A DNA stretch of 64,000 nucleotides. Origin: Sphaerolaimus hirsutus (lineage: Eukaryota > Nematoda > Chromadorea > Monhysterida > Sphaerolaimidae). Below are positions 9,583-45,600 of the stretch, piece by piece. Position numbers and translations under genes: made by a program. The notes beneath the pieces were generated by a model. That model worked only from the letters and a program-made list of their open reading frames with translations, had not been told where the DNA came from and searched no databases. Position 1 is the stretch's first letter. Each line of letters starts with the position of its first letter. Where the stretch lies: positions 10,553,832-10,617,831 of the forward strand of contig OZ038458.1 in NCBI GenBank assembly GCA_964036195.1, in the 5' to 3' direction.

Positions 9583-12500
9583 ATGTCGCTTCAACGAGAT
9601 TTCGTTCGTCTATGTGTTGCACTGTCGATAGTCGCGATGACTGTGCAGACTCGGCCAGTTACAGTCAGTTTAATTTTTTCTTTGTCAGCTGTTCTTCCAT
9701 CCGTTTCTGCGTAATACGTGAGCTGGTGTGTAGTTAGGGTGGCCCTGTGTACGCGCGCAGGGCCGTATCCAGGGGGGGGCGGGGGGGGGGGCTGCAGCCC
9801 CCCCCCCTCCCGGGGCGAGACCAGAAAGTGGCCAGAAAATGCGACTTTTTTAACGTCAGCGTAAAAATTTTTGCGCGCAAGCGCGCATTCTTCACCAGAT
9901 ATAAGGTATTATCATCAGATTTGCTCCATGTGGTCGCAAATCATTAAAAATTTTGTGCTTTTTGCTGTTTTGTATGTATATATACATACATATACAGCGT
10001 TCCATGGCGCTGACGCCAATGGCACCATGGCGTGGCGCCTACTAATGGCGCCAGCGCCATGGCGCCATTCCGCCACTATGCAGCTAAAATTTTAGGGGGG
10101 GGGGGCTGAGCCCCCCCCCCTCGCCGGGCTCCGTAAACAAGCAGCCCCCCCCCCCGCTCAAAAAACCTAGATACGTCCCTGTACGCGCGTAAACCGGGCT
10201 CTCACATACGCCCGGCACGCACACAGGCCCGGCACGCACATAGCATGGGCTATTTGCAATTTGGTTTGCTTTATTTACATTTTTTACACATTGTTGCAGC
10301 TTGACATTGAATTGAAGCTGAATTCAAAAACGTTGATTTGTTTAGTGGAAATTTATATGAAATAATGTGTACGTAAAATGTACCTGGATAAATAAATAGG
10401 GGCAGTAAAATTAGTATACTACACAGTAGTATGAGAACTGTCACACCACGGCATAAAAGCGCAGTATGAAAACTGTCGCGTTACAGCAGAATGAGGTAAA
10501 AAATCCTAGTATATAAACTGTCACATTTTGGCATGAGAAGTGACGCGTTCTGGCATGTAAACTGTCGTTTCTGATGGTATATAAAGTGGCCAGTATTAGA
10601 CATGTCTTGGCTTCCGCACATTGCACCAGCTATGCGCGTGTCAGGCGTATGTGCGTGACGGGTTTACGTGCATACAAGGTCTGGTCCGTTAGGGTTAGGG
10701 TGTCAAAAATATTTATACGGAAAACTTAAAGGTAAAAAATTTCAGCTGCCGGAAAACTGATAGCGGAAAGGTCAAAAAGTTAGTGTTTAAACTGGATTGA
10801 CTTTTTTTGGATCGGGATTGGCATTTCAAATTTTCGGGATCGGAATTGGGATCATAACCATTTCGGGATCGGGATTCCAATTTTCAAATTTCGGAATCGG
10901 GAACACAAAATCCCGGAATTTTTTCGGCATCTCGGTTGTTTTCATACCTAACATTAGTTTATAACTGACCGCTCAGGGCGCCTCCCCAGCAGCCGCCCCG
11001 CTGCAGGGCGTCGGCGTCGGGCTGCCGTTCGGTTTGGGCAATTTAGGCGGCGGTGACGTGCAGGTGAATATGCCCTTCAATCAGGTGCGGCTGCCCGGCA
11101 CCGGGCCGCTGGCGAATAGGCCTTTCGTCAAGTTGAACGGGCCCAAGCAGGGCAATTTGGCTACCAAGCCTGGCGGTGATGGTGGGTTGAGTCGGATCGT
11201 ACGTATCCAGGATTTTTAAGCGGGGGGGGGGAGCTGTATGTATACTGAGCCAGGTTAATGGGGGGATGACATTTTACCTACAAAGTAACGGACTGGTGCC
11301 ATGGCGGGTGATGGCGCCAGAAACAACTGTATAGTATGTAAATATACGTACATTTACAGCGACAGGTACATGATTGAGTGTGTTTTCAGGGATGTGTGTT
11401 TGCGGGGACCGATGTGCTGAAGATACCGTGCGCGTAGGGGAAGAGTGCGCGGTTGCACGCAATTGTTTCACGCAAACCTTAAAAATTGATAGTAAAAGTT
11501 GCATTTTCCGGGGGTTTTCAGGTGTCACCCCAGCCCAGTTGCCAGGAACACCTTAAGTTAAGCACTTTTGCTCGTTTCCTAAGACCATGTTCATTTGTTA
11601 ACACCGCCGCAGGTACTCCCACTTTACGTTGCCCGGCCAACCTGAAACGCTCCTTTCTACCCCCTGGCGCTTCACCTGGACTAGGTCTCAGTCCATCACA
11701 AGCTGCGGCCGCCGCAGGGGCTGGCCAATCGCCAGTCAGCGTCATAAATATGCCCTTTTATGAGTTTCAAATGCCGCTCAGCAACGTGCGATCCGACGGC
11801 AGTAGAAATGAACTGCCGCAAGCGTTGCGACAGCGGATAAACAGGGAGCGGCAGATCGACGCGGCGCTGGGCGACCCAGTTGCCAGGGCGCTGGTCACCG
11901 GCCAGGATGTGCTGCAGGCGGCGCAACCGCAAGCGAGACAGGTCGGGCTCAAGGAATGTGGTTCAGGGGCGGTGATTGATAACGGGGAAATATCCATCAG
12001 TGTTGATATACTCGGCGGACCGCAAAGTATGTGCAGAATTAGGGTTGGGACGATACGACTCTTCGATATTGATATTCGATATATTTTTCTGAAACTCGAT
12101 ATTCGATATTGATACGATATGGACCCTCGATATCGATATTCGATATTAAAAAATGTTCGATTTTTGATATCGATATTTCGATATTTTCGATATTTCGATA
12201 TTTTGCTTTTGGTATAGCAGGGCATTTCTCATTTGGCATATTGCATTTCCATTTGATCACAAACCCAACTGATCATCTCTACTGAAAAGTAGATGATACA
12301 AATTTAAATGGCACACAATGATCAAAATGAGAAAATGATTTGAAAATGTGACAGATGTGGTAAGGAAAAGGTGCCAGCCCCATTTATAGGTGCCAGGCCA
12401 TGGTGCCATTGATGTTCCCATGGTGTAAGTAGCTATTAAACATACATATACTCTTATGTGAACATCTGAGAGTGCATTTGCACATGATTTGATGCTGCCG

Positions 12501-15500
12501 CAAGTGCTGAAACAAGAATACCTGTCATGTGAGAAGAAAGTGCGCGCTTGCGCGCAAAATTTGTTAAAATTGCTTATGAAATCGCCTTCTAATAGTGCCA
12601 TTCCTGGCTTATTTGAAGTCAGGCCCAGGGAGTATAGAATATCGAAAATATCGAAAAAATGGTTGATATCGATATTCGATATTTTTTCAAAATTTTCGAT
12701 ATCGATATTCGATACGATATATCGTCCCAACCCTATGCAGAATCCTGCCATAATTGAATGAATAAAATCATTAATTATTATATAGTGAAAACGAAATAAT
12801 ATGATGAAAAACTGTAATTTTTGGTTAATTATTCAGATGGGTTATGGTAGGTTTAAATACTAAGTGTGATGTCCGCCGAGTATATAAAAACTACAGTTAT
12901 TATTATCCTCAGTATCATAGTACACAAATTTTAACTTTTCTCGATTTATCTTATCAGCTTTCCTCAACAACAGCTAAATAGCAGACTTTCAGTTTCGAGT
13001 TAGCTACGTAGTTAGAGCTGGTTAACTCGCAAGTACAACACTCCATTTCTAACTGTATTTACGTATTTGTTGCAGTTGTTGAACGGGGGCGGACCGGACG
13101 CTTCCATTGGTTTGTCTGAGCGCGCGCTGAAAGGCAACTTGGATACGTCAAAGCAGTTTTTCGGCTCCAAGAAAGGGCACCCCGATCTGCCGGCTCCCAA
13201 CAAACTCAGTCTGCCCATGAGCGTGCTCAACTTTCCCCTGCATCTGATGGACATGCCGCTTAGTAAGGTATGCCGGTGGTCGTTGACTTTTTATGCTTTC
13301 CATTTTCGAATGTATTTGATGGCCTGTTAGATGCGATAAGGATAGAGAGTTCAAACGGGATCCCGATCCCGAATTCCTGAAAATTTCGGGATTTGGAAGT
13401 CCCGGTCCCGAAACTGCAACCACGATGCCGAAACTCAAATCCAGATGCCTAAACCCCAATTTCGATCCCGAAATCCCAATCCCGAAAAGTCAATTTCGTT
13501 TGAACCCTATATGGATAGGAGTTGATTTTTTTATAGGAAAAATGCGAAACGTATTTATCCTTCCAACGCTGGCTATCCACCCAATCATCGGCTCAGTATT
13601 CATTTTTATGCTAAATACAGTACAGGCACCTAGGGTTCAAACGGGATTGACTTTTCGGGATCGGGATTGTTTTTTTGAGATTTCGGGATCGGCATCGGGA
13701 TTGGCCGGGATTGGGGTCACGTGATCGGGATCGGCATTTTTTCGGGATCGGGATTGGGGTTGTTGGATAGAGATTTTTGCCAATGTTTTGGCATCCACAG
13801 TTGTTCATAAAGGTCTAAAAACACTGTTGGATGCCAGAAACGTGGCATCAAATGATCGCTGGGGGTTTGCGTTCACATGTTTGCATGCAAAACGTCGTTT
13901 TTTCACTTTTGATAATTTCCACTAATTTTTCCGGGATCGGGATCCCGGACTTTGGAGTTTCTCGGGATCGGGATTTGAAAAGTTTCGGGATCGGGATCGG
14001 GACTGCAAAATCCCGGAATTTCACGGGATCCGGGATCGAGATCGGGATCCCGTTTGAACCCTACAGGCACCTACCCATCCCGCAGATGATGCTGCCATTC
14101 TCCCGGCTGAACGCACTACCGCAGTTTTTCGGCCAGGGCGGCGTCACAACCAGCGTATTTCCAAATGCCGCGCTGCCGCAGGCGTCGCCGTTGGACGCCG
14201 TATTGGCTGCAGGAAGTGCGCAGAGTCTTGGTGCCGGTGCACCGGCTTTGGGCAAGAAACGGAGAAGGAAGAGGTCTGAGTCTGGATGTCATCCCGAAGA
14301 TCATGTCAGTTTTTTTGCATTTTTTTGGTTCCTATTGGATGATTACACTCTGGAACAAACACGCAAAATTGATGTTTTACGTCAATTTTGAATTTTTTAA
14401 ATTGCTTTTTTGTTATGTTTCACGGTATCTGTGATAAATGAAGTAGTGAATAGGGTGTTAAATGGCAGTGATTTCAATGTTTATTAGATAACACTACATC
14501 ACCTGTAGTTTTCAAGCGGCATTTTTCTAAAAAATAGGCGATTAAAAAAAATCGTATTTTATAAAACTACAAGTTTTAATTCAAGGGGTTTAAAAAAGTT
14601 ATTTTTTCATACCCTTAAACCTAGATACGGTATTTCATGTGAGATCCATATGATTTATCGTCCAAACCATATAAATAGAATTCGTTGTAATGATTGAGTC
14701 GGGTTCTATAATAGATATTCAGTTTTGTTGAAGCTTGTACAAGTGCAAAGGGATATCGGCGCAACATTCCCCTCCACGCAGGTTTGTCGGGCAGCTGAAG
14801 CGCTCACACCCGACCTTCCGTTCAATCTGAACAGTTTCTCGCTGCCGTATTCGTTTATCAACAACCCGCTGGGCTTCTTCAATCTTCCATTGTCCTACAT
14901 TAATCTCCCCTATGGCTCCTTCAATATGCCCATTGGACATCTGAATTTGCCATTCGGTTTCAACAACTTGCCGTTCTTCGAAATGATGCAAACGTTCGGC
15001 GTGCCGCCCGTGTTGAGGAGTGCCGATGTGCGTCGATGGCGGCCCGCAAAACTAGTTGACAAATGTGTGTCAGTGTCAACTCAGATTTTGTCTTTGCGTG
15101 TCGCAGAGCGATCTCCAAATGCACATACGGGAGTTTTGAAGAATAAATATTTTGACAAGTGCATTGGAAGATGTCTCTGCGGCACGTGAAGCCAAAATCT
15201 GAGTTGACAGTTGACACAGACTAGTTGACACACATGTCAACTAGTGTGTGGGCCGCCGAAATGTTGGTCTTTGACAATCTATGCTCGTACACAAATTTTC
15301 AGCTTTTTTCTGCCGTTCAGACTGAAGTACCGCTCGTCCATCCGAATAAGGTGGATGTTGTGGAAGAAGAAGTCTCGCCACTTTCCGGCCATGAGCTCGT
15401 ACCATCCGATTGTTTCTATGAGGAGCCGGAAGTTCCCGTTAACGAGGTCGTTTTCCCTTTTGGAGCCTGTACCCGCAAAAATTATGTTTCAAACGCGTTT

Positions 15501-18500
15501 GGGTTCTGTGCTCGCCATAGCGCAGTAGATATTTTCAAAAATATAAATCTCTCATAACAGAAAATATAATCTCTGTTTTTGCGGCCGCGTCGTTTTAACG
15601 GCAGGCCTGTTCTACCCATTAGCTAGTGTTTACGGTTTGTCCTACTGGCTGTTCCCTCTGCTCCAGGCGTCTTGTAGATTATAACTCCTTCGGATGTCCA
15701 GATAGGTATAGTCGGCAGACATGATATTATACAGGTTTGGTCCACTTATGTTTCGCTTCGCTGAGCGTCAATGAAATTCAACATCTTACTGAACAGTGAA
15801 GTGCGATACATCTTAAATACGGTAGAAAAACGGTGCACAGTGGGTCGTAAATATGTCAATATGTATAGTCGACAGACATATCTTTCTACAAAATTGGAAA
15901 GTTATATTTTGTTCTTGTAGAGCGAACGAGAAAGGAATTTAGTAAAAAAGAAAATATATAGATAGTAAGAAGGAAAATAAAAATGTGCAGTTCTTTACGC
16001 ACTCGTTTACTCCAATTTTTGTGCCGATAGGTGCTGCAAATTTTTGATTATACGTTTACGTACGTTTAATCTAATTCATATTTAGAAAAGTTACACGCTA
16101 TCGATTCATTTTTACGAAAACTTGTTACGTTAAAAATTTTGAATTCAGAAAACGTTCCCGCTTTGTATTTATTCAGATCCAGACGACGCTTGGATGGCAT
16201 CATGCCAAAAAACTCAACCACACTTTGACGGGGGTTTGAATTGTGCGGGCACAATTGAATAGTTTCATTCCGTATATGCGTTAGCACGAGTCACCAAAAC
16301 AGAGTTCTACGGGTTGGATACAGCGTGCATGATATGACATGCAACTCATTGTATAGTATCATGTCTGCCGAGTATAGCAGATAGTTCCTTCGGAGGGATA
16401 GATAAATAGCTGACAAATTGTATGGGGGTTCCCGGGGTTTAATAAAATTGTGTTTCATTACCCCCTGCTCTGAACCGCCCCCCTACTAGACCCCAGCTGT
16501 AACCACAATGACTATGTTTCGTCAAACTTTTTCACCCTCCCGAAACGTATTTTTTTGTCATCCAGAACCGAACATTTTGAAATTGCCAACCCTAATGCGC
16601 GTTTTTCAACTTTCGCAGAGCGCTCAGGCGGCGGTGGCGGCGGACTCTGCAGTTTTGACCGAGCTGCTCGATTCGATCGAGAAGGCGCGCCTTGCGTCCG
16701 ACAAATCGGATCTCGAAGTGAAACAGCCGTCCGACGTGGTCGGATTGACTGATTCGTTGATCGCCGGCGCCGTCAGTGCGGGTGTTAAAAAGAAAGCAGG
16801 CGCTGATGATATGGAAGTTAGGCAGGAGCTGAGGAGTGCCACTGATTCCTTGAATAGGTTTGAAGCTTTGCACTGCATTTTGGGGCGTTTTTCTGCGTTT
16901 TTTTGCTGGCTTTTTGACTTTTGGCAGAAATTACAAATGCTATTTATTCCATTGCTCTACAGCCATTATGTGGCTTTATTAAACATCACGAAGTACTCTT
17001 GACCTTTAAATTTAAGAGACGGGATTAAAAACGTTTTTAATCCCTCTAGTCCTGAACGATTTACATCGAATGTGTCCGTATTTTGATTAATTGTCGCGTG
17101 AAAGGTGTTTTACCACTGTCCCGCATAGTGAGACCAATATAATATCGGGAGAAATTTTTTCCAAATATGAAAATGACAGACTGAGATGAAATATGACACA
17201 CTTCATTGTTAACTGAAACGGAATTAAAGAACGTGGCAATTTTTGGGGATTGGCGTCCAACACTTTTGCTCAACTTTCAGATTCTCCGCGTCCGTGCCCG
17301 AGTTGGGCGGCTTGTTCGGCACGCCGAACGCCCTCTTCACCACGCCGTTTTCTTTGTTCAACCTGCCGATCGGCTTCTTGGACGAACCGTTGGCGTTCAT
17401 GAACATGCCCTTCAGTCACTTCAATCTGCCGCTGGCTCACATGACGCTGCCGTTCAATGGATTCGCGCTGCCCACATTCGATATTGTGGAGCCCGAAATT
17501 CATCAGACGGTTTGATATTTGGGTGCCTTGTTATTTTGTTGGATGTTTACAGGGAGGCGAGCTCGTTGGTTGCTGTCAATGAACCTTAGCCTTCAGTCAT
17601 GTTAACCTACTAGTCATGTCGCCCTACCGGACATATACATGTATTTTACGGTTTTTTATCACGGCAGTCTGATTTGCAGCAGCGGTTTTACCTGATAAGT
17701 AGAATACATAGTTCGGGCCGCAGTGCGCGTGCAATCACATTGTTTTTGTCACACTCACTCTTAATTTACTGCACTCTAAGAAAACTAGAAAAATCCGTAA
17801 ATCAGTTGCTACGCATTTGGGTTTTTCAGTTGTTCTTTGAGCGGTGACATCAAAATAGCGAAAAAGAAGAGTGCACATGTACCGTGGCCTGTGCTATATA
17901 CCCTAAATATCGTGTGACCCGGCTGCCACTAATCCCCCGTGACGTATACTAATCCCCTAAAATACATAACTGGCGGGTCTACATAGGGTTGGAAAAAAAC
18001 GTTTTTTTTTAACTCGATGTTTTTTTTATAAATAAAAACGTTTTTTTTTTTAAAAGCTCCCAGATATGACCTTGTGTCAACATATATAGGTATATCAGAC
18101 AGTGGCAATACTCTGTGATGTTATATATGACCATATAATGTCTGTGGAGCCATGGGATAGCATTATAAGTGGTGATTTGTGTCAAAAATATCCATTTTTC
18201 GTCGACATATTGTTCGTATATCGCCTTATAGTCGAATGTTTGTGACTTCAGGTAAAGTTTGGCACGGAATAGTGATAAAACAAGGTTATAAAAGGAGGTT
18301 GTTACTTTGGGACTGAAGTTACACACTGTGGAGGTACATGGAAGCACATTACCTCAATATTATATACTACAGCAACATATGACGGCTTATTAACCCATGG
18401 TAGCACATAGAAATGGATACTTTGTTACTAAAAATGCCACAAAACCAATGAAAACAACTATCAATGTCAATTTGTGTGTGAAATTGCGCGCTTGCGCGCA

Positions 18501-19073
18501 AAAATTTGGCAAAATACCTAGTGCTTAGCTCTAAACATTTCGGCCGATGTTTTTTTAAAAAAAAAACATTTCGGACGTCATGTTTTTTTTTAAAAAACAC
18601 GTTTTTTAAAATAAAAAACGTTTTAAAAAAAACATCGGCCAACCCTAGGTCTACATGACTGGGAGGCCTACGTCCGTGTCGATGTGGTTTTATGTTTGTC
18701 AAACATGACTTGACTAAAATAACTTGAAAAATGCTTTGGTTTGGGAACTTATACACACCGAAAATTCGAAAGTTTCCGTATTCAGGTGGAGACGGCCACC
18801 GTGGAGTTGGCCGACATCCCGCCCAGTCTGCTGGAGCTGCTGAACCCAGAGGACGTGCTCAAGACCTACGTGAACATGCCCATGTCGGAGCTGAACCTGC
18901 CGCTGGCCATCTTGGACATGCCGTTCACCGTTTTCGATTTGCCCTTCGCCTTCATGAACCTGCCGATGAGCCACTTCAACAACCCATTCACCAATTTGCA
19001 TTTGCCCTTCGAAATCAGCTCCCTGCCCTTAGCCGACTTGGCTCTGCCTTTTGCCGCGTTTATGCAATATTAG
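9583..19073 (+). CDS. Unrecognised secreted protein with about 30 proline-centred heptapeptide repeats
   Basis: I do not recognise this family. Exons: 9583-9663, 10977-11181, 11613-12026, 13076-13267, 14086-14304, 14782-15027, 15321-15446, 16619-16857, 17281-17509, 18786-19073 (TAG), about 740 residues. Exon 1 encodes a signal peptide (core VRLCVALSIVAMTVQ). The rest is dominated by a 7-residue unit, [FLMI][ND][LMN]P[FLIM]x[x], for example FNLPLSY INLPYGS and MNMPFSH FNLPLAH; runs of 8, 7 and 9 units lie in exons 6, 9 and 10, with single units in exons 2-5. Exon 5 ends with KKRRRKRS, a furin-like site. Exon 7 (15321-15446) is acidic and exon 8 (16619-16857) is predicted helical, with no repeats. 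Phases agree everywhere except exon 3 to exon 4 (1 against 0), so a small exon or another donor is missing there. No membrane span or enzyme motif was seen. Confidence 0.75.
9758..10181. mobile_element. Family E hAT-like element
   Basis: Begins CAGGGCCGTATCCAGG, ends ATACGTCCCTG, with the 8-bp duplication TACGCGCG (9750-9757 and 10182-10189). It has GCGCGCAAGCGCGCA at 9873 and GGCGCCAGCGCCATGG words. It is inserted in the CGCACAAACGCCC-type foldback remnant spanning about 9746-10675. Confidence 0.9.
10182..10675. mobile_element. Degenerate foldback element with CCCGGCACGCACA units
   Basis: Right part of a copy related to 1401-1805: units CCCGGCACGCACA near 10210-10240 and inverted relatives near 10630-10660. 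Between them 10430-10610 holds imperfect tandem GTATGAAAACTGTC units. Confidence 0.5.
10688..10955. repeat. Remnants of TAGGGTGTCAAA and GGGATC word elements
   Basis: TAGGGTGTCAAAAA at 10693 followed by GGAAAAC words, then a GGGATCGGGATT array (10808-10910). No intact ends were found. Confidence 0.5.
12040..12735. mobile_element. Family C hAT-like element with GATATCGATATTC arms
   Basis: It begins TAGGGTTGGGACGATA and ends TATCGTCCCAACCCTA, with the perfect 8-bp duplication TGCAGAAT (12032-12039 and 12736-12743). The arms are GATATCGATATTC words; the core has GCGCGCTTGCGCGCAAAA. The decayed gene copy at 24240-24300 shows the uninterrupted site. Confidence 0.93.
13347..13510. mobile_element. 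Short family D element with GGGATC words
   Basis: Bounded by GAGTTCAAACGGGATCCC and CGTTTGAACCCTAT, with ATCCCGA words between. No confirmed target duplication. In intron 4 of the heptapeptide gene. Confidence 0.7.
13631..14063. mobile_element. Family D hAT-like element with GGGATCGGGATT array
   Basis: It begins TAGGGTTCAAACGGGATT and ends CCCGTTTGAACCCTA, with the 8-bp duplication CAGGCACC (13623-13630 and 14064-14071). It ends 22 bp before the exon 5 acceptor of the heptapeptide gene. Confidence 0.92.
15041..15254. mobile_element. Family B MITE
   Basis: Inverted ends GGCGGCCCGCAAAACTAGTT and AACTAGTGTGTGGGCCGCC. It fills most of the 293-bp intron between exons 6 and 7 of the heptapeptide gene. 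Confidence 0.7.
17984..18647. mobile_element. Family H hAT-like element with TTTAAAAACG arms
   Basis: It begins TAGGGTTGGAAAAAAACG and ends CATCGGCCAACCCTA, with the perfect 8-bp duplication GGTCTACA (17976-17983 and 18648-18655). It contains GCGCGCTTGCGCGCAAAAAT. It is a near-identical inverted copy of 43728-44389. Confidence 0.93.
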
Positions 19074-19217: not shown

Positions 19218-19223
19218 AATAAA
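19218..19223 (+). promoter_or_regulatory. Likely polyadenylation signal of the heptapeptide gene
   Basis: AATAAA 145 bp after the TAG. The AT-rich 3' region to about 20490 holds no further gene; 19115-19390 contains an imperfect foldback around TTAAGACAA and GTAGCTTTAAT. Confidence 0.5.
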
Positions 19224-23515: not shown

Positions 23516-23526
23516 AAAATTACCAT

Positions 23527-24735
23527 CTGTTTGTTTCTGAGAGTAGCCGGAAGTTTTTGTTAGCGGCGATATCGTTCCATTTTTAGGGTCTGTACCCGCA
23601 ATAATTATGTTTCAACCTGGCTTGGGTTCTGTTTTCGCTATGGTGCGGCAGTTATTTTCGAAAATATAAATCACTCTAAAAGAAAATATAATATCAAGTT
23701 TTTGTTGCTCGTCGTGTTAACGGCCGGCTTGTTGTAGCCGCTGCGGTTTATTGTTTACCTTGCCTTCTGTTCCCTTTGACTGAGGGGTCTCGTAGATGGG
23801 GGTGCCCCCTGGTGTTCAATGTATATGTTTTTCTGTACACCTGACCCCCTGCCAGACCCCTGCTGTACCCATAGTGATCATGTTTCAGTCAATCTGTTTA
23901 ATTCCCCCCTTTGGCGAAGTCATAAATGTATAAACCACTATACAAGCATAGAAAGTTGTTATGCTTATCACTTTTTAACTTCTCGTTGTCATCCCTGAGT
24001 GATGGGTATTTTAATTTTTGCAGAGCGCCCAGGCGGCCATGGCGGCGGACACGTCTGTGGTGACCGAGCTGCTCGATTCCATCGAGGGGGGCGTCTTGCG
24101 TCCGACAAATGGAGAAGTTGAAACAGCCGTCCGAAGTGGTCGGTTTGATCGATTCGTTGGTCTCCGCCGAGCCAGTTCAACGACCCATTCACCATCTACA
24201 TTTGCCGTCCGACGGGTCTGCCTTTTGCTGCGTTTTTGCATTAGATATACTGGGTGGACCGCAAAGTATGTGCAGAATCTCACCATAATCTAATGAATAA
24301 AATCTTGATAAATTTCGTAATAATTTATTCCATAGTAAAATCAAAATATTTTGATGGAAAAATGTAAATTTTTGGTTCATTTTTCAGATGCGTTATGGTA
24401 GGTTTTCATAATAAGTGTGATGTTCGCCGAGTATGCGTTATTTATAACTTTCAGTTTGTAATACCTTGGCAGCTTTTTGTGCCAATCACTCTGGCTGGAT
24501 GTCTATCCCATTTCGGGTTTAGGTGTTTTGTGCATTACGGGTATTTTATGAAGATCATAGTGGTTGATTGTGTTGTACATAATCGAATTTTTAGTAAAAC
24601 ATGTGCTGACTTTTGCGTTGTTCACTTTGCAATGACTTTGTGTTCGGTAAATAGTACCTAAGTGCCGAGACGCCCTGAGATATGCGTTATTACTGTTGAT
24701 GATATCGTTTTCTCACGCGGTGCTGTTCTGGCATT
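23527..24735 (+). pseudogene. Decayed, rearranged copy of the heptapeptide-repeat gene
   Basis: Blocks match the intact gene in mixed order: 23527-23760 matches exon 7 and its donor side (15405-15620); 23860-23990 the following intron; 24024-24160 exon 8 (AGCGCCCAGGCGGCCATGG against AGCGCTCAGGCGGCGGTGG) with an early frameshift; 24175-24243 the end of exon 10; 24243-24430 the end of exon 3 plus its intron (12006-12890, without the family C insertion); and 24440-24735 the 3' flank (19420-20490). The exon 8 frame is lost after about 30 codons, so it cannot make the same product. The exon 3 block lying after the exon 10 block shows rearrangement, not simple duplication. Confidence 0.75.
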
Positions 24736-33600: not shown

Positions 33601-36600
33601 TAAGGAAGGAAAGGATACAGTATTTCAGCAATACCCCCGGGCCAACTTCTAGCATGCGACCAACACAAATTATAGAAAAACTTTCCAAAAATGTCGAAAC
33701 ATACAGATGCATATCATTTAAATTACAATTACGCAAAAGTTTCTGCAATTCCCAAAAATACTATCCTCAATATTTAGTTAGCTCTTCTGTTTTCGTTATT
33801 TTAGTAATTTTTTTACGCTTAATTTGCACTGTTAGTAGCATCGGGCATTCTGAAAGGTTTACCAAAACACAATTCTGAAAGGTGTGGTGGCGGGAGGGGG
33901 GACAAAGGGCCCGAACACATCAACTCAACTTATTCACACTTTTCGATTAGTCTGTTACACAAATTAGTGTATGTGGAGTTCCCCATGGTAATGCTGGAAT
34001 TAGGCCCTGGGGACACTTTCTCCCTAGCTACAGCTAAATCAATTAAAAATAAATAAAATCAGCCCCAACTACGCACGTCGGTTCCTGTCGACCAAATCGC
34101 ACTTGTGGTCGATCCACAAGTCCGGCGGCGGCTTGACGTCGCCTTTTCTGCTCCTTTTTCCAGCGACGTAGCCGCCGCGGCGGCCGCTGCCGCGTCGACA
34201 GCAGTAGACTACAATTCCTGTTGGGCATATATAGTTTTTATGTGTCCTGATCCGTTTATATAACTCGGAGTGAATGTCAAGTTAGAATGTACCGGAGAAT
34301 GGGTTCACGTGTAAATACGAACTATAAATTGGGAAGCAAAAAGACTGTGCACGATTCCAGGCAGAGTCTACGTCTACGAATCGGCGAACACATTGCTAAA
34401 ATTGCTGCAAACAAATAAAAAGCACAATGCACCAATAGCCCAAACGAACCGATCACACTGATAAGGCAGACTGCGACGGCGGCAGAGGCGACCATGAGCA
34501 CCACGGTGGACGTGCGGTCCAGGAAGGCGGCCGGGCCCGACAGCTGCGAATCCCCGCCGCCCGTCACCGGCCCCGATGCTGGCGCCATTCCACCTGAGGG
34601 ATTGGGGGTCAGAAAATAGATGCTGAGAGTGGGTAGCACATTCTAGCAACGCACATGGAGGTTGTGTTGTACTGAATATAATAATCGAACTAATTTTCAC
34701 ATGGAATGCTGTAAAAACACATCAAGGCTGTGAAAACAAATCAAAAATGCGTAAAGAATTTTGACGTCAAAAATCATGTCGTCCGAAAATCGGTCTCAAA
34801 AAGCCACCCCTTCAGGCGCACCTCTGGTCCTATGCTGCACCACGGAACTCTGCGGTCCATATCCCTTATCATTTCTAGCCTGTATCTTGAAGTAGTAATC
34901 AGTCTGCGGTAACAAATTATCAATGCGCGTGGAAAAATGGTCGCCGCGCACAGGTCGCAGCTGCCATTCGGCCTCGCGTTGTGTCACGTCAGTCGTGTAG
35001 TAGATCAGGTACTCTGTAGAGACAACAGTGAAGTTCGCATGTGATTTAAGGATAAGCTACGCAAGTAGGTGCCCCTGGGTGGGTACCTATTGATTGGTTG
35101 ACACGTGTGCTATGTTTATTGATCGTTTTCTGTAGATTTCAACAAAAATTAGCTGATTTCAAAACGGTTGCGACCGTTTATCTTACTAGGTGCCACTCCT
35201 GGACGCTGAAAAATGTCAAATATCATGGCCAAAGTGTCAAAGATCATGTAAAATGTCAAACTTTCATTTTTATACTGGTTGTTTGACATCTTTGATGAAA
35301 TATTAAATGACTTTCAGAACATTGCGTGATATTTAAAATTTTACAGAGCATTTTACATCTGGGTGTCGTCCCTGGTATATGAAGCATCTTGGAGACTTCA
35401 AAAAAAGTAACGCTCAGACGTAACATATTTAGATATAAAAATATCACACTTAGGAATCAAACAGATCAACTTATGTCACCCGTCAAACTCACCCACGATC
35501 TGGCCATTGGCAAATTTCGGCGGCTGCCAGTTCAACATGGCCACATTGGGATCGCCATTGGGCGAGTTGACAAGGGTCAAGTCTCTGGGCGCAGAAGAGG
35601 GCGGAGCCGAGAAAGTCGTGTTCAGTGCAGCCATGCTGTAGCGCGAATGCCGATGACCCAGGGACACCTGCGTTTTTGTAACGATTTTGTTCATTTGAAT
35701 GGTGGAAGTCTGGAGTTGAACTGCATTTGATATAGGCACTGGGGTTATAGTGATGAGTTCCAGATTTCGACATAAATACTATATAAATTGGACATTAAAT
35801 ATCCTATATTTGTTGTGTCAATATGGTTTTCAATAGTAAAAGTTCATCCATAAAAGTTCAATAGTACGCCTATCGTTCCAACAGGCTGGTCGCAATATAT
35901 TCACCAAAATCTCATCAAACTTTAAGAACTCACCCTAACAGAAAACTCATACTGAGTAGCCGGCTTGAGTCCATCCACCACATAAGTCGTCTCAGTGGCA
36001 TTTCTCAGCCTATACCTGCCGCCATCCTTATGATAATTACTATACCTAATCGTATAGAATCTACCATCCCTGGGCCGCTGCGGTCCCATGTCCACGGTGG
36101 GCAGCGTCTGGTCCGTCCAGGACAATCTCACCGCCGTGGGGCTGAGCGTGCGCGCGCTCAAAGCGATCGGCGTGAAGCGCATCTCCAGCGGCGAGTCGGC
36201 GTCTTCGCCGCCCAGGTGCGCGCCGTAGTCGTCGTACAGGTCGTAGGCGGCGGCCGAGTTGGCGCCGGACTGGCCGAAGGCGCCCGGCCGGCCGCCGCCG
36301 CCCGCCGGCAAGGTGCGCACCGACTCGTAGATCGGGAAACCGTTGCCCGCCTGGTTTTGGGGAATTCTTTACGGTGAAACGTTGATAATGAGTGATAAAA
36401 AGTGTCAAGATTTCAATAGATACCGAATAAGACCCCAGGGGAGTTATTGGTTTGCCAGAAACTTTTAAGGGGTGTTATTCATAGTTGAGGGGTAGTTATT
36501 TTTCCTCTGAACTTTCAGGAAAATTTGCACTTTATTCATTGTATGAATGCATTCCTTCAACTCATGTAATCCAGGTATAACAGTTCAACAAAAACAGTCT

Positions 36601-39600
36601 AAAATTTGTGTTCATTGGATCACGAAACATTCATATACACATATTGGATACACATATCAAGTAACCAGAGGTTTTCAAGAGGGGAGGATAATTCAAATGG
36701 GGTATTTTTCTCGCCTGACCAACAGGGGGAGTTATTCAAGCGGAATGATATTTAAAGGGGGTCTTATTCGAGGATATACAATATGCATTAAAATTTCTTT
36801 AAAGAAAAAGATAAGAAAAGCCAAGACAAAACGCACATTATTATAGGCCCTCATACTGATAACATACTCCCTATTCGGGTCCAACCCTTCAATCTTGTAA
36901 TACCGCGCGTGCGCATCCACTTTGGCAGTGTTGCTGTCGGGCACGCCCACCCCCCAGCCGACCAAATACCCCCGAATCATAATGCCATCATCCAAAGGGG
37001 GTGCCCAAGCGACGGCTATTGATCGGGCTTCGGCGTGGGGCCGCAGCTGGCTGGGCGCGCCGGGCACCGTGTTTTCTGCGCAATGTTATGCGATGAGAGA
37101 AAGTTATTTTTATTAGGATGAATTATGTAGATTTCATTGTAAAGTGTGCAAAAAGGGCTAAAAACGCTAATGAAGCAAGAAGACTATATATTTCATCTAC
37201 CATATTTCGTCTAATAGATTAGCATATCTCCCATAGAATGGCACCTCCAAAAGAACGGAAGGTAGGCACTTTTTCACCCACGAAAAGTACAACGACAGCC
37301 CCAATAGAACGGCAAAAAACGCTAACGGAAAAATAAAACGGCGCCCTTCTACTAGAAGAAACACTTTAATAAAAATTCTACCAGGCAACCCAAGGCACCT
37401 TCTCTTTCCCTCTCGAAAGTTTCAAAGTTAATCCACGATGTGGGCGGGCCGCTACCATTCACATTGATCGCTCTCAACTGCAGCACGTAAGCAGTGTCCA
37501 CGAGGAGATCGTTCAGCTGATAGCTCCTGGTGTCGGGCGATATGACTCGTTCATCGACGCGAGCGCCGCGGCGGTCAAGTTTGAATTTTAACTGGTAGCC
37601 GGTGATTATGCCGTTGCGGGCGATTGCCTGTTCAGAGGTGGCGTTGTATTTATGCTCGAAATAGCGACTGGAACGACATGGAGAGAAATCAGATAAAAAG
37701 TGATTTTTCGAACAACTAATTTCCTAGAAAAACTACCCTAAAACATTAACGTGCTAGCATTGCAAAAGTATCGGGTGATTTAAAAGTTATAAATCTAAAA
37801 ACTATAACAATTTTTCAGAGATAAAACTTTATTAAATGAGAAGAAAATATTTATATTGATTTTTTGGGGGGATTTTATTATATTTCTTTTCTGAAAATCA
37901 GCGATTTTTAGAAAGTTAAGCGTGACATGCATCAAGACAAGTGATAAATACTAGCTTGGGTGGGACTATCCAAATCGAACGACATTATGCAAACTACCGT
38001 AATACAAACACAAAGAAACCATCAAACACGCACCGGAACCTCATCCCACCGAACTACAGCAGCCGTGGTTCCGGTAACTTCAACCTTCACATCAGCCGGA
38101 GGTGAGCTTGGCGCGTCGCCCAAAGTGGTCGCGTGCACAGTGGGAGAACTGAGACCGGCGCCCAAGTCTCCAAAAGCCTCCACCCTGTATGCGTAGGTGG
38201 TGAACAGGTCGAGGCCGTGCTGAACGTAGCGCGAGCTGGTGACCACTATCTCCGTTTCCTGGATGCACGGTTTAGTGTTAATGTTTCTGGGAGCAGTCTC
38301 AGACCCTGTAGAATGTCAAATGTTATGCAAAGTGTCAAACGTTTTGACTTTGACTTATGACACTTTGCATGACATTTGACATTTTACAGGGCCTGCGACT
38401 GGCACCAGGTGAACAAACTTAAATCATAAAGCTGAACCTACCATATCCCTCTCAATAGGCTGTCCCTCGTGCTCAACCTTGGCATAGTACAGCTTGTAGA
38501 ATCTGACCGCACTGTCGCCGGCGGGCGGGCGCCATTCGATCGCCATTGCACCCGGACCCAATGGCAATGCACGCAGCTCGCGAACGGTCCCCGGGACCGC
38601 TTCTGTGAGGGGAAAATTTGTGGTATATGCACAAAAATTGCCAGAAAATCAAAAGAAATTGTATACTTATTTAATTAATAAATAAAGTTGAGTACAAAGC
38701 AGCCAAAACTCAACGCGACACCAGACTTACGCTGTGCTAAAGTTCTCACTCTAAGTGGTTCACTACTGGAGCCCTTTTCCCCACCATCGGTGGTGGCAAC
38801 CACTCGAAAGTAGTACACCGTGTCGGGTTGCAGCGAGTCCACGCTCAGCTGAAGGCCCGTGGTCGTCTGTGACCTCTCTCTGCGTTGAAATAAGTTGTGA
38901 CCGCGTCTATTTTGCCTACGCAGACTAGTTGACAGCCAAAATTTCCAAAACTGATCAATATATTTTGAGCACATTTTAGTTTACCTGAATGAAACTTTGT
39001 TGATCTGTGTTAACAGCATTTGGTTGACGGATTCCTCATTCAGGTAAACTAAAATGTGTTTGAGACCAATTAATCAGCTTTGGAAACATCGCTTGTTAAA
39101 TAGTGTGCGTAGGGCAATCAGTTCTCCTGGAATTCGGCGTTTTTGTGAACTGTATATATATTCCGCGCTAATGTATTATATGTCATGCGTTCCACTGGTA
39201 ACAGCGCAATTCAACGTTACTCATTCACTCCAATCCATCCACCCCCTCAGCCCCCATGACTGAACTCACCTATCAGAACCTTCCTCCTTATAAAACACCT
39301 CATAGCCGGACACAACCCCTTGGCCCCTGGGCGGCGCGGCCCACTCGAGCGTCACGAATCGACTGCCGGTGGTCAGCGTGCGAAGTCGGTGCGGCGCCGA
39401 CGCGCGGCCGCCGTCCGCTGGTGATGCCGCCGCCGCCGCGTCACTTTCTGCAGTTGCGGCAGTGGTGGATTGGGCAGTGTCCACGAGCCGGTCGCTCGGA
39501 CTGCCGCCGCTGCTGTTGCTGTTGCTGCGCTGCGCTGCGACCGTGCGAGTGGGCGGTGTGGCGGCGTGCAAGGGGGTGGGGCGGCAAAAGCGATGCATAT

Positions 39601-42600
39601 TTTTGGGTAGATATTATTTGTTACTGATTTTAGTTTTTGGATACGTTTTGCAAAATAACATATTATAATTGTTTTAATTTGTATTTTAATTTGAAGTACT
39701 TAAATGTTAATTTTTGAACGAAAATGTAAGTACAACGAATTTTCCATCATTTCCCAATCCCCCTCGAAACAGACAAAAAACAACATCATATGACTTTCAC
39801 ACTGAAAATGCCGCATTGGGAACAGATGATGCATTCCTGTACGCTCAGTTATTGCATTTGGTGATATATTTATTAGGTGCCACACCCCGCCACGACACAC
39901 ACGCGCACGGGCGCAGCGCGTCACATTTTCTAACACAGCAGCGGCAATAGCGGCGGCAGCGGCGGCGGCAGAACGGCGACAATAAAAGGCGCCGCTGGTT
40001 TATGCCGCCGCCGCCGCGGCAGACATTTCCACCCATTATCAGCAGAAAACACACGAGTCTTTACTCTAATGCCCAATGGGTGAAAAACAAACGAGGTATG
40101 GGTATAGCGGTAAAAAGTGCAAGAATGCGACAAGCCTGTTGAAAATTTACGCGGAACAAAGGTCGACTTTTTGTTAATGTTGCGGAGACTCACAGGCGGC
40201 AGTTGGGTGCCCTTCGCTTTTTATTTGTTATTTTAACTAAACGTGGCTACGAAAATATGTCTGGTTAGTCGTGTTGTTTACACGTTTTTTTATGAGTTAT
40301 CTTCACGAAACCAAATTGCTTTAATTGATGATAAAAAACAAAAGATGTTGATTTAAAAGAATTGGTCCCTTATTGAACCAGTGCAAACTGCATGAAAATT
40401 ACTCCCGCAAAAACAACTTACCGTAATCAGGATAGTTGTTGAACATATAGTAGGGATAGAGGTAGTCTACAATCGGAAAATGGGGGGCCCAGATCTCTAT
40501 CGCTCCACCACCAAAAAATCAAACCAAGACCCTCAAGACAGGAAAACCAAATCACCAACAGTAAAAAGCCCACAAAAAAAGAAAAAAAGCCAACCAACCA
40601 GCTAACTGGACGACCAATTGTGCGCTGGCTTGCACACTTCCAGCTTCATTTTCCGCCAAACACTGATACACTGCCTGGTCGGTGCGGACTAGGCCCAGTA
40701 CGCGCAAGGCCCCGCCCTCGATCTGGGGGTGGGTGATTTTAACGGACTTTTAAGTGTGGCAAAAATGTGGATGGCGTGAAAGTGGGAGCATGTTCTGGAC
40801 AGAATTACACTTTCGACGCTATAGTGGGATCAAATGAAATTTAAAACTTTTTGTGTGCTCAGTAGTTTTTTGGGCAGAAGTGTGGAATTTATGAACCATT
40901 GATTTGACTTAATGGCACCACACACGCTGGATGTCAACTGAAATCGTAAGAACAAAATTTGAGTGAGTTAATTGATTTCAACATCACTGATAGAACATAG
41001 TGAAGTTTACACCATGACACAATTTTCATTGTTTCTGTGAAGTGTGATGGTTTTTAATTTTTTGTGTTATTTAGTAGACATCGAGTTGACACGAATTTGC
41101 GATGTCAACTAGCGTGTGTTAGGCCATTAATGAGCCCATTTTTCATGACAAACTGAAAAGCCGCAATAAACCACCAAAACGACCAACACCGAACCCACCC
41201 TAAAATAATCGCTCGCAATAATCTTCTCTCCATTCTTATACCAAGTAACGCTGGGGCCGGGTCTGCCTTCAGCCTCGCACTGAAACTCCACATCGGTGAC
41301 TTCCTTGCCAACTGTATTTCTGGGGGTCGCGCTCAATCTGGGCGGGACTAAAACGTCGAGCGCGGCTTGGGCCTCGGCGGTGGCGTGCTGGTTGGCCGCG
41401 CGGCACATGTAGGTGCCCGCGTCCGTGCTGCGCACTTTGGACAGGACCAGGGTCGAGCGACCGGATAACGACAGGCGGTCGTCCTGTATGGACGCATTGT
41501 ATTTAGAATGATTGAGATTTTTAATACTCCGCAGAGAGCACAGCTTACGTGCGCACATATTTGTTTTACGCAACGATATGCCAAGTCAACACTTGTGAGG
41601 GTACCCACTTTCACAAAAAGTAAAAACATTAAAAATAGAACAGCATTTTTCAGACTTGAAACAACTTTTTCTATTTTTGGAAAAAATTTGACCTGTTAAT
41701 GATGACGTCATGAAAGGCTGTTTACTTCAGAATACCGAATAGAGTGTCTACCGTTAAAGAAACTTTAAATGACAGTAATTAAGTACAAGGACGTAGCCAG
41801 GGGGGGGGCGGGGGGGGGCGGCCGCCCCCCCCCCTTCCCGGGCCGGACCAAAAAATGTGCCAGAAATGGCACTTTCAGACGACGATTTTGTCGACAGTTA
41901 GAAAAAATTTTTGCGCGCAAGCGCGCATTCTCCCTTCACAACATATCTTTTTGGCTGACCAGTCTCCGCGGCCTAAAAGCCTGTGAAAATGTACTCAATT
42001 TATGTCCATGTCGCTGTATATGCCTGTAAAATACAGACGTATACTGCTGTTTTGGCGCCAATGCCAACGCCAGTGGTGCCATGGCGTGGCGCCTACGAAT
42101 AGCGCCAGCGCCATGGCGCCATTCCCCTACAACAGGGGTAAAATTTTTAAAATCCCCCCGTTCGCCGGGCTCCGTATACAATCCGCCCCCCTCGCTCAAA
42201 AATCCTGGCTACGTCCCTGATTAAGTAAAATGTCTGCATCGATAGTCGCACATTAAAATTATCCACCAGCAGACCCAACTTCATGCACGGTTAATATTCA
42301 CCTTGGCCACATTCAACGCCACCCTGTCCTTGAGCCACTGCACGTCGGGCGGCGGGCTGCCGTTGGCGACGCACTCGAACACGGCCGTGTCGCCCTCCCG
42401 GACCACCTGGCCGCGCGGCTCCAACACAAAGGAGGGGGGCTTGCCAGCGCCGTCTTTGGAGCGCATGCTGAGCTCGCCCTCAGTGCTGTGTCTGTACTTG
42501 TCGGCGTTGCTCAGCCGGCACTTGTACGCGGCCGCGTCCGACTGGCGCACGTCGCCTATTTCGAGCGTCCCGGTCACCGGGTAGACGGTGTAGCGCGCAG

Positions 42601-45600
42601 AGCCTTCTGCGAAACGAGAACGATTGGCCAAGTCCACTTCGAAAATTATTTGCACACGTTCAACTAGGACATTTTTTGCCAAGTGAAACAGAAATTGACG
42701 GAAATGTGATATCTGGGGGTCTGGTATATAAGTCTGGGGGTAGAGTAGAGTGAATCAATTAAGCGTGTGGAACTCGTACAGCGGGTGATTGATCTACTCA
42801 GTCAAGTTAATTCGCGAGTGATAAATCAGGTTAACACGGTTAAATCAGTTCCACTTGACCACCCTTAACCCAAATTAAGTGATAAGCACGCGCATGCCAC
42901 AGTACCCAACCAGTCACAGTACCCTAACGTACCAACGTCGATGAGCACGTTGTCCTTGTACCACAGGACGGCGGCGGGCGGCTTCGCGTCGGCCACCCTG
43001 CACGCCATCGCAGCCACGTCGCCCACGCTCGCCGTGGCGTCAGTGGGTTGCTCGTCGAATCTGGGAAGTGGTGCTGTGTTTTACGGTTTGTTATTCAAAA
43101 TGTAATTAATCAGACCAATTGTTTGATTATCAGTGATCTGGTGCGCTTATTAGTTTGATAGTTTCCCAATTTATTTATCTACGCACTATTTGCTCACTCA
43201 CTCGATTGATTATCCCCGGATAAGTTGACTGTATTTGACAGGTCACTCAAAAAGCAACCACCAAATCAAATATTTTCAAAAAAGACACCAAATCCCCCAA
43301 ACATGTAACCAATCGATTCACCTCGGCAAAACGGCCATTTCCAATTTTGCCATTCTGCTAACGAACGTCCACTGGGCGTCGTCTTTTTTCACGCGCACAA
43401 CGCACTGATATGAGGCGGGGTCGCCGTCGGTCGCGCGGCTTATCAGCAGTGTACCGTTCGACAAAATCGACCTGTGGTGGAAGAAGGTTGATTATTTATT
43501 GTCAATGTATTTATTTACACAAGTGATGTGGTTTGGTTCCACTCCCATACCCTGTAAAATGTCAAATCAATTTCGTGCAAGTTCAAAAACTCATGTAAAA
43601 TGTCTTGAACAACTGCCAGAAAAAAAGAATATATTTACGACATGTTTAATGACTTTTGCCATGTGCACCGTGCAGAACGGTTTACATGTTACTGGGTATT
43701 TTTCAAACTCTGGTAGTGCCCCTTGTGTAGGGTTGGCCGATGTTTTTTTTAAACGTTTTTTATTTAAAAAAAACACGACGTCCGAAATGTTTTTTTTTAA
43801 AAAAAAACATCGACCGAAATTTTTAGTACTAAGCACTAGGTATTTTGCAAAATTTTTGCGCGCAAGCGCGCAATTTCAGACACAAATTGACATTGGTGGT
43901 TGTTTTAATTGGTTTTGTGGCATTTTTAGTATCAAAGTATCCATTTCTATGTGCTACCATGGGTTAATAAGCCGTCATATGTTGCTGTAGTATATAATAT
44001 TGAGGTAATGTGCTTCCATGTACCTCCACAGTGTGTAACTTCACTCCCAAAGTAACAACCTCGTTTTATAACCTTGTTTGATCACTATTCCGTGCCAAAC
44101 TTTACCTGAAGTCACGAACATTCGACTACAAGGCGATATACGAACGATATGTCAATGAAAAATGGATATTTTTGACACAAATCACCACTTATAATGCTAT
44201 CCCATGGCTCCACAGACATTATATGGTCATATATAACATCACAGAGTATTGCCACTGTCTGATATACCTATATATGTTGACACAAGGTCATATCTGGGAG
44301 CTTTTAAAAAAAAACGTTTTTTATTTTAAAAAAAACGTTTTTTTTAAAAAAAAACATCGAGTTAAAAAAACGTTTTTTTTCCAACCCTACCCTTGTGTAC
44401 AATTTATTCATTCGTATAATTGAGGAAGCTCACCCACAGCAAATATTATTTTATTATAAGTGTGAATAATATGTGTGAAAGACCCCTGTCAATCAAAAAC
44501 ATTTTTTGTGCGCAGTACTTGGCGACAGGTGCATTCGACAACTGCTGTGACACTAAAAAATATGTTGTACTTATTGTCGACAAACAAAAAAGTTCTGAAG
44601 TGCAGCAACGCTCCACACATTTTTGAAGCATCGTGCCATTTGTTTGCACAAAGCTGTCTGACTGAAGCGCTCAAAAAATACTCCATTGGCAACGGACACC
44701 CCCTTTTATGCCATTCGCCTCAAGATACATAAACATGTACACATTCACTCAAATTCTGTTCACATAACGTCCAAACCTCGAAGCATCCAGGTGTGACTCA
44801 CAAAGGCTTATGCACCCTCCATTGGAGCCAATGACCGAATTTATGGCCAAAGCGCTCACAGAATGGAATGGCGCCAACGTACATCTGGCGTGAAACGGAT
44901 GGCATGCCTCACCGTTTACCCCCCCCCCCCAATATTTGAAGCCGTAACAGAGACAGCCCATATTAGCTGAAATAATCCCCTGCCCGTTCAAAGCGGCTCG
45001 CGATGCGACGCGAACACGGCCGAGCACTCCATATACGGGCAATTCCCCGTGGACAAACAAAATGTGCCATCCAGACATCTGGCAAAATAAAGCGCTTTTT
45101 GAGTGGGCTGGCGAGCAAATAAAAAAGGCGGCGATGGCAAAAAGTGCATCAGATCAGGGCACCATTTTGGTTTTTAAAACGGCATCAACCACGTGGCAAA
45201 ATTATACACCAAATGTATTTTCAATACATAACATATATGATATTTATTTTCCACAGCTGGGGCAACACTACCAACCATCATCCATCTTGTTCAAGCCAAC
45301 TAATTATGTAGGTTCACTTTGCATTTCCCACAGCCGCGGCTCACCGCGAACTGACGCGCGCGCTTCAACTACGTGTGTAGCGAGCAGTGCTTGGAAACCG
45401 CAGGGGACGTGTTCCGCGAGTCCGGCGCGTATCAATTCTAGCCTGCTGGGTGGCCCATTTTGAAATGCGTCACTGTGCGGTAAGTTGAGACTAGTACACT
45501 TGTTCGCAGCGAGGTTCAGTGAGAAAATTCAATAAACCCCGCCAAACAAGTTTTTTCCACAGCCTGAGTCATTGTAAATATTTATTTCAAATTTAACGCT

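Follow-up and report, generated by a model that had tools for sequence, protein, structure and literature searches.

Proteins of the MLT-10 family are secreted by the epidermis around moults, and the family was reportedly defined by Meli et al. in 2010 through its tandem P-x-x-L-(S/T)-P repeats, with which arrays in the genome studied here agree; elastin-like matrix proteins carry short, hydrophobic, proline-punctuated units separated by other sequence. One report describes MLT-10 itself as a secreted protein of the moulting cycle with proline-rich repeats, required for the adult alae (PMC7712855), and another presents the epicuticlins (EPIC) as secreted nematode cuticle proteins, called intrinsically disordered, with tandem repeats of 49-51 residues and conserved tyrosine motifs (PMC9612446). 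Here we consider a gene at positions 9583-19073 (plus strand) of a 64,000-nucleotide stretch of Sphaerolaimus hirsutus contig OZ038458.1 (assembly GCA_964036195.1), hereafter the window. The gene is probably functional, in an animal that is nematode-like, and its predicted product carries a seven-residue, proline-centred repeat (the heptad). This product may belong to the surface matrix, resembling the MLT-10 moulting family while remaining distinct from it.

The ten exons of the original prediction were placed correctly, and their nine GT-AG introns join them into a single in-frame chain, free of stops and frameshifts, of 717 (model A) or 753 amino acids (model B); the two models differ solely at the exon 2/3 junction, and phase 0 is found at seven of nine junctions in model A and eight of nine in model B. 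The borders were picked to keep the frame open, and for this reason an open frame over ten exons is weaker evidence than a transcript. Exon 7 has an alternative end at 15527 (GCA/gtagat, phase 0, by eye), with a better-looking donor than the weak one at 15446, which would add two cysteines. The gene is composed as follows.

9583..9663, plus strand: exon 1, with the ATG and donor gtcagt (phase 0); 27 amino acids forming a hydrophobic, signal-peptide-like N-terminus (by eye)
10977..11198, plus strand: exon 2, with the donor after 11198 (model B) or 11181 (model A); rich in Gly, Pro and Ala, one heptad at 11064-11084
11522..11941, plus strand: exon 3, starting at 11522 (model B) or 11613 (model A); two in-register heptads at 11744-11785
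13076..13267, plus strand: exon 4, three heptads at 13205-13267, the last flush with the donor
14086..14304, plus strand: exon 5, unit four of array I at 14086-14106, then an Ala-rich linker and KKRRRKR
14254..14274, plus strand: KKRRRKR, candidate furin/kexin-type site, residues 326-332 of model A
14782..15027, plus strand: exon 6, array II of seven heptads at 14836-14982
15321..15446, plus strand: exon 7, acidic linker with one Cys, possibly extended to 15527
16619..16857, plus strand: exon 8, acidic Ala/Leu-rich spacer with no heptads, perhaps helical (by eye)
17281..17509, plus strand: exon 9, array III of seven heptads at 17336-17482
18786..19073, plus strand: exon 10, array IV of nine heptads at 18870-19058, with the stop codon at 19071-19073
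19218..19223, plus strand: AATAAA, candidate polyadenylation signal

The heptads number 30 in seven exons, as the original prediction had estimated (one in exon 2, two in exon 3, three in exon 4, one in exon 5, seven in exon 6, seven in exon 9 and nine in exon 10). They were picked by hand: 29 of 42 places fitting xxxP[FLIMYV]xx were kept, 13 that broke the register or differed from the motif were dropped, and the in-register unit FALPTFD was added. The repeat is beyond chance. In model A, 29 pairs of prolines stand seven residues apart, where 2000 shuffles averaged 8.0 such pairs and peaked at 16; the pairs at lags 14 and 21 (27 and 20) also lie above every shuffle (maximum 18 each), those at lag 28 almost do (16; null mean 7.6, maximum 17), and those at lags 5, 6, 8, 13 and 15 do not. 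Residue identity at lag 7 reaches 107 against a null of 51.0 (standard deviation 6.6, z 8.5). The unit is looser than first described: [FLMI][ND][LMN]P[FLIM] fits 14 of the 30 heptads and the more permissive [FLMIV]x[LMNF]P[FLIMY] fits 25, while the Asn/Asp assigned to position 2 occurs in 20 units and not in the other ten. Position 3 is Leu or Met in 25 units and position 5 Phe or Leu in 22; position 4 is indeed always Pro, a regularity true by construction, because the units were selected around a proline. The register runs unbroken across the exon 4/5 boundary, where MDMPLSK is followed in phase 0 by MMLPFSR, just as had been reported.

All four proline codons are used in the 30 units (CCG 13, CCC 12, CCA 4, CCT 1), which bears out the free codon variation noticed before, and between units the likeness of codon position 2 (0.67) exceeds that of positions 1 (0.44) and 3 (0.39). 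Mean base identity between 21-mers in matched array parts is 0.48 in exon 6, 0.56 in exon 10 and 0.47 in exon 9 (range 0.47-0.56), against 0.76-1.00 at 13 of the 14 other loci reached by a search with a heptad consensus (17 loci read), which are minisatellites; the remaining one (0.58) has no proline array. Base identity being low and the amino-acid pattern retained, the protein pattern has therefore been kept while the DNA was scrambled, and the earlier view, that the repeat belongs to the protein level and is no DNA satellite, stands. A scan of the reversed window (one or two frames, vs three or four in the window) was discarded, because reversal retains the 21-base period and thus provides no null. 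Minisatellites of 21 bp were seen on several contigs (L006, L008, L010, L011, L012, L013), with several frames open and proline heptads such as WQPHQRP and ALVRLPG.

On three hydrophobicity scales, the 3/7 harmonic, at 154 degrees per residue, takes up 94, 80 and 68% of the periodic signal in the mean values per heptad position, and the helical 2/7 harmonic 5, 15 and 26%. Because of this harmonic and of the proline at every seventh residue, the arrays are likely to form an extended, twisted, one-sided strand rather than a helix; a ribbon, and not a helix or coiled coil, is what the hydrophobic pattern predicts. Upstream of the arrays, the chain opens with the hydrophobic N-terminus MSLQRDFVRLCVALSIVAMTVQT, signal-peptide-like as judged by eye, and model A is devoid of Trp. 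As for the furin-like KKRRRKRS site from which processing into two parts had been suggested, the site is there (KKRRRKR at residues 326-332 of model A, with RRKR at residue 329 fitting R-X-K/R-R), and cutting at it would yield oppositely charged pieces: residues 28-325, with net charge +9 and seven heptads, and residues 333-717, with net charge -35 and 23 heptads. No Lys or Arg occurs among the 161 residues that make up the 23 C-side units, Gly is scarce in the arrays, and the C-side arrays are set apart by acidic linkers and by the acidic Ala/Leu-rich exon 8.

The arthropod setting assumed in the original prediction did not hold, the genome being nematode-like. We take the animal for a nematode, perhaps one that branched early, though a nematomorph is conceivable. 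Col_cuticle_N, TTR-52 and Moulting_cycle are nematode marker families, and the genome has 56 matches to the Col_cuticle_N profile (PF01484) and 11 to TTR-52 (PF01060); Chitin_bind_4 (PF00379) has none in it, a sign that is weak alone given that control genomes had none either. The PF04870 profile found eight places at E up to 1, one of them over the cut-off and none within the window, and five to six of the eight stand near LSPxx arrays (e.g., LSPYVLSPYTLSP), on the same strand and no more than a few kilobases away.

L041 8372-8910; L043 9269 with L044 103; L046 (minus strand); L047 (minus strand); on contigs C6, C16, C4 and C7: MLT-10-type loci, with LSPxx pentads near PF04870-like frames

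The heptad gene thus shares with the MLT-10 family the nematode setting and a long run of short, proline-centred, hydrophobic repeats, both kinds being present in one genome, and departs from it in spacing: prolines are seven residues apart in 23 of 23 steps of its four arrays and five apart in 40 of 43 steps of four local MLT-10-type arrays, all hand-cut. The presence of five- and seven-residue proline-centred repeats in a single genome raises the question of whether short repeats with a fixed proline were invented repeatedly for the same matrix. By its likeness to the family, the heptad protein may work like MLT-10 without being a member of it. Among known kinds this family comes nearest; the original prediction named neither it nor the broken copy described below.

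The protein is apparently undescribed in the libraries and literature searched. That no Pfam family would be known for it proved right: Pfam returned none, either for the whole protein (model B, E up to 10) or for seven array rows, NCBIfam none for nine stretches from exons 2-10, and a sequence search of the PDB no convincing match. A search of IMG/VR contigs with exon 10 gave 33 pattern stretches and no relative, and the protein was absent from the literature searched (titles and abstract openings, with subscription journals mostly outside the coverage). Among the candidates considered by name, an epicuticlin identity (GYR, PF02756), which would call for GYR and YGD motifs in the long repeats, was rejected on the heptad period of seven, the four Tyr in 30 units and the lack of any Pfam family; Chitin_bind_4, the domain of arthropod RR cuticle proteins, was not found in the protein by Pfam. 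Elastin-like matrix proteins share with it short hydrophobic units with a fixed proline, and differ in that the period is seven residues here, Gly is sparse in the arrays and Pfam revealed no relation in sequence. FNIP repeats contain short FNxP-like words, and an array profile reached CroV539 (PDB 7zal) at E 0.013; this match is a composite of several stretches, none significant by itself, and was put down to chance (best i-Evalue 120, FNxP words of CroV539 about 23 residues apart, no Pfam family). The C. elegans "heptapeptide repeat" of PMC10516431 is that of RNA polymerase II. If expressed, the heptad protein would bring a new type of repeat to the nematode secretome, which already includes collagens, cuticlins, epicuticlins and the MLT-10 family.

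The explanation we prefer, and which we regard as plausible while stopping a little short of calling it probable, is that the gene encodes a secreted matrix precursor, which furin-type cleavage would release for self-assembly in the apical matrix. To judge from its N-terminus, the chain would enter the secretory pathway, and its product would be non-enzymatic; a furin/kexin-type protease would then cut at KKRRRKR, releasing a basic Gly/Pro/Ala-rich piece that carries seven heptads and an acidic one whose 23 heptads form three arrays (7, 7 and 9 units). With each heptad tending toward hydrophobic residues at positions 1, 3 and 5, Asn/Asp at 2 and Pro at 4, the arrays may act as amphipathic extended strips that stick to one another, to the basic piece, or to the lipids and collagens of the cuticle, the acidic spacers presumably holding them soluble before cleavage. 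Used in the manner of MLT-10, the protein would be made by the epidermis, then built into the apical extracellular matrix or shed with it. We prefer this explanation because of the periodicity, the codon scrambling, the in-frame exons, the +9/-35 split, the 3/7 harmonic, the nematode setting, the local proline-repeat family and the precedent of MLT-10; secretion, cleavage, assembly and a role in the cuticle are what we infer from these features.

Several observations weigh against a cuticle matrix precursor of extended strips. AlphaFold2 gave mean predicted local distance difference test (pLDDT) values of 44.2 for exon 10 alone and 48.9 for a seven-row alignment of register-shifted arrays, both uninformative, and both low-confidence models contain short helices and no strands; a Foldseek comparison of the second with the PDB yielded no match, the model being too poor for this to be informative. 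The solenoid or extended fibre once imagined for the repeat drew no support from these models. There are four Tyr in the 30 units, and the usual cuticle cross-links are not obvious because the C-side arrays have three Tyr and no Lys or Cys. Model A contains five Cys, one of them within the signal-like N-terminus, and one N-glycosylation sequon. In addition, the non-repeat exons are linked to the gene by splice phase alone, plus, for exons 7, 8 and 10, a collinear broken copy downstream.

Hydrophobic blocks, charged spacers and oppositely charged halves are common in self-assembling secreted proteins, and the alternation of such blocks and spacers, together with the opposite charges of the two halves, would suit a secreted structural protein of another kind than a cuticle or moulting protein, be it adhesive, eggshell or silk-like, in a gland, eggshell or cyst, the same hydrophobic self-association then taking place in another tissue. 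We consider this reading somewhat unlikely, the sequence indicating no tissue. The preferred matrix precursor could also be given a narrower form, which strikes us as unlikely when all its parts are taken together: an undescribed module of about seven h-[ND]-h-P-h-x-x heptads would make up an extended, twisted ribbon, hydrophobic along one edge, in a self-assembling apical matrix protein activated by a protease through the separation of its basic and acidic parts, and would perhaps derive from an exonic 21-bp minisatellite placed under selection at the protein level.

The blocks of exons 6, 9 and 10 align unit by unit above chance (joint P 0.0037, offsets 0 and +1, with unit order permuted in exons 9 and 10), in a joint permutation that was post hoc, having been prompted by the preceding alignment. 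Pairwise, the P values were 0.012 (exons 6 and 9), 0.41 (6 and 10) and 0.094 (9 and 10) for the total score, and 0.24, 0.60 and 0.40, respectively, for the mean score; the four-unit array of exons 4 and 5 gave 0.048, 0.052 and 0.15 against exons 6, 9 and 10, with its best fit to exon 10 at offset 0, not +1. This suggests that a block of about seven heptads was duplicated and that the arrays did not grow heptad by heptad, and an open-ended fibre is somewhat weakened by blocks seemingly duplicated whole, the pairwise tests being mixed. A secreted carrier, in which the arrays would be strips binding lipids or other hydrophobic ligands and the blocks of about seven heptads would be folding units, is suited by the whole alignment of the three blocks, which agrees with a unit of fixed length, and by the hydrophobic stripe; the post hoc nature of the joint test, the mixed pairwise values and the lack of a confident AlphaFold2 fold speak against it, and we judge it quite improbable.

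Membership in the MLT-10 family itself would make the heptad protein a diverged relative with DUF644 (PF04870), in which the proline repeat lengthened from five residues to seven and DUF644 has either decayed or sits in unseen exons. A secreted-looking nematode protein with prolines at a fixed short spacing and hydrophobic neighbours, in a genome with MLT-10-type loci bearing LSPxx arrays, lends this some appeal. However, PF04870 has no match in the protein at E up to 10, two profiles made from local DUF644 stretches had none with filters off, and a local pentad profile reached only E 0.058, with a negative score and outside the arrays; P-x-x-L-[ST]-P occurs 0 times in the protein. Since DUF644 and the P-x-x-L-(S/T)-P repeat were not found and the proline spacing is seven, not five, the protein fails as a member, and such a descent seems to us very improbable.

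Searches of the 348-Mb genome were made singly with exons 10, 6, 8 and 3 and with the artificial heptad consensus, and their counts are lower bounds. Exon 10 gave at least 14 matches, namely exons 10, 9 and 6 and 11 other places, ten of which have proline-periodic minisatellite frames, L014 having none. Exon 6 gave at least 15, 12 of them with loci; among the ten read, L020 is exon 10 and nine are minisatellite-like, two minisatellite-like places outranking exon 10. The consensus gave at least 27 matches, 20 with loci, of which 17 were read; of the other three, L056 falls within exon 10, and L064 and L067 coincide with L004 and L005. Exon 3 matched itself alone, and exon 8 itself and one place at window position 24024 (E 0.07), part of the broken copy. 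These exon-by-exon searches found no second intact heptad gene in the genome, and the gene appears to be single as far as they reach. The broken copy is a degenerate, partly deleted tandem duplicate of the 3' half, collinear with the gene, in which no counterpart of exon 9 was found; its frame is lost because gaps interrupt it.

23521..24641, plus strand: broken copy as a whole, its pieces 74-86% identical to the gene
23521-23797, plus strand: end of exon 7 and intron 7
24006-24169, plus strand: piece of exon 8
24169-24243, plus strand: pieces of exon 10
24504-24641, plus strand: piece of the 3' flank

That the gene too would be a pseudogene, or a set of accidental open frames over an old 21-bp minisatellite, is scarcely credible, for although the genome is rich in 21-bp minisatellites with open proline-heptad frames and the adjoining copy at 23521-24641 is broken, the gene has ten exons with no stop or frameshift, its amino-acid pattern is kept at low base identity, and its units resemble one another more at codon position 2 than at position 3 (0.67 vs 0.39).

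Small elements resembling miniature inverted-repeat transposable elements, with terminal inverted repeats around ATACTCGGCGGAC or TATAGTCGGCAGACATGATA, occupy 12006-12885 (intron 3), 15707-16376 (intron 7) and 24244-24434 (inside the broken copy). Intron 9 holds a 0.66-kb repeat (17984-18647) with an inverted copy at 43728-44389, 91% identical, and more distant copies near 23.0 kb and 27.8 kb.

The mitochondrial contig of this assembly (C762; L028, L029), 14,754 bases long, is rearranged and uses invertebrate code 5, with nad1 and nad2 opposite the other protein genes (names by eye); atp8 was not noticed by eye, and cob extends over two frames near L028:8054. A kinorhynch-like mitochondrial order was rejected for this genome by comparison with kinorhynch genes, which PMC5068742 places all on one strand.

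Elsewhere in the window, Rfam (at the gathering cut-off) and ARAGORN gave no match. On the minus strand, 5203-5553 matches the N-terminal part of COG5 (E 6.5e-7, narrowly short of the cut-off), and 55434-55715 carries an EB1 C-terminal motif (E 3.9e-14). An immunoglobulin (Ig)/fibronectin type III (fn3) receptor extends over 34325-42754, also on the minus strand, with Ig exons at 41130-41585 and 42284-42754, an fn3 exon at 35925-36368 and more fn3-like frames seen by eye; the best PDB match of one of its Ig exons is Roundabout 2 (E 2.7e-33).

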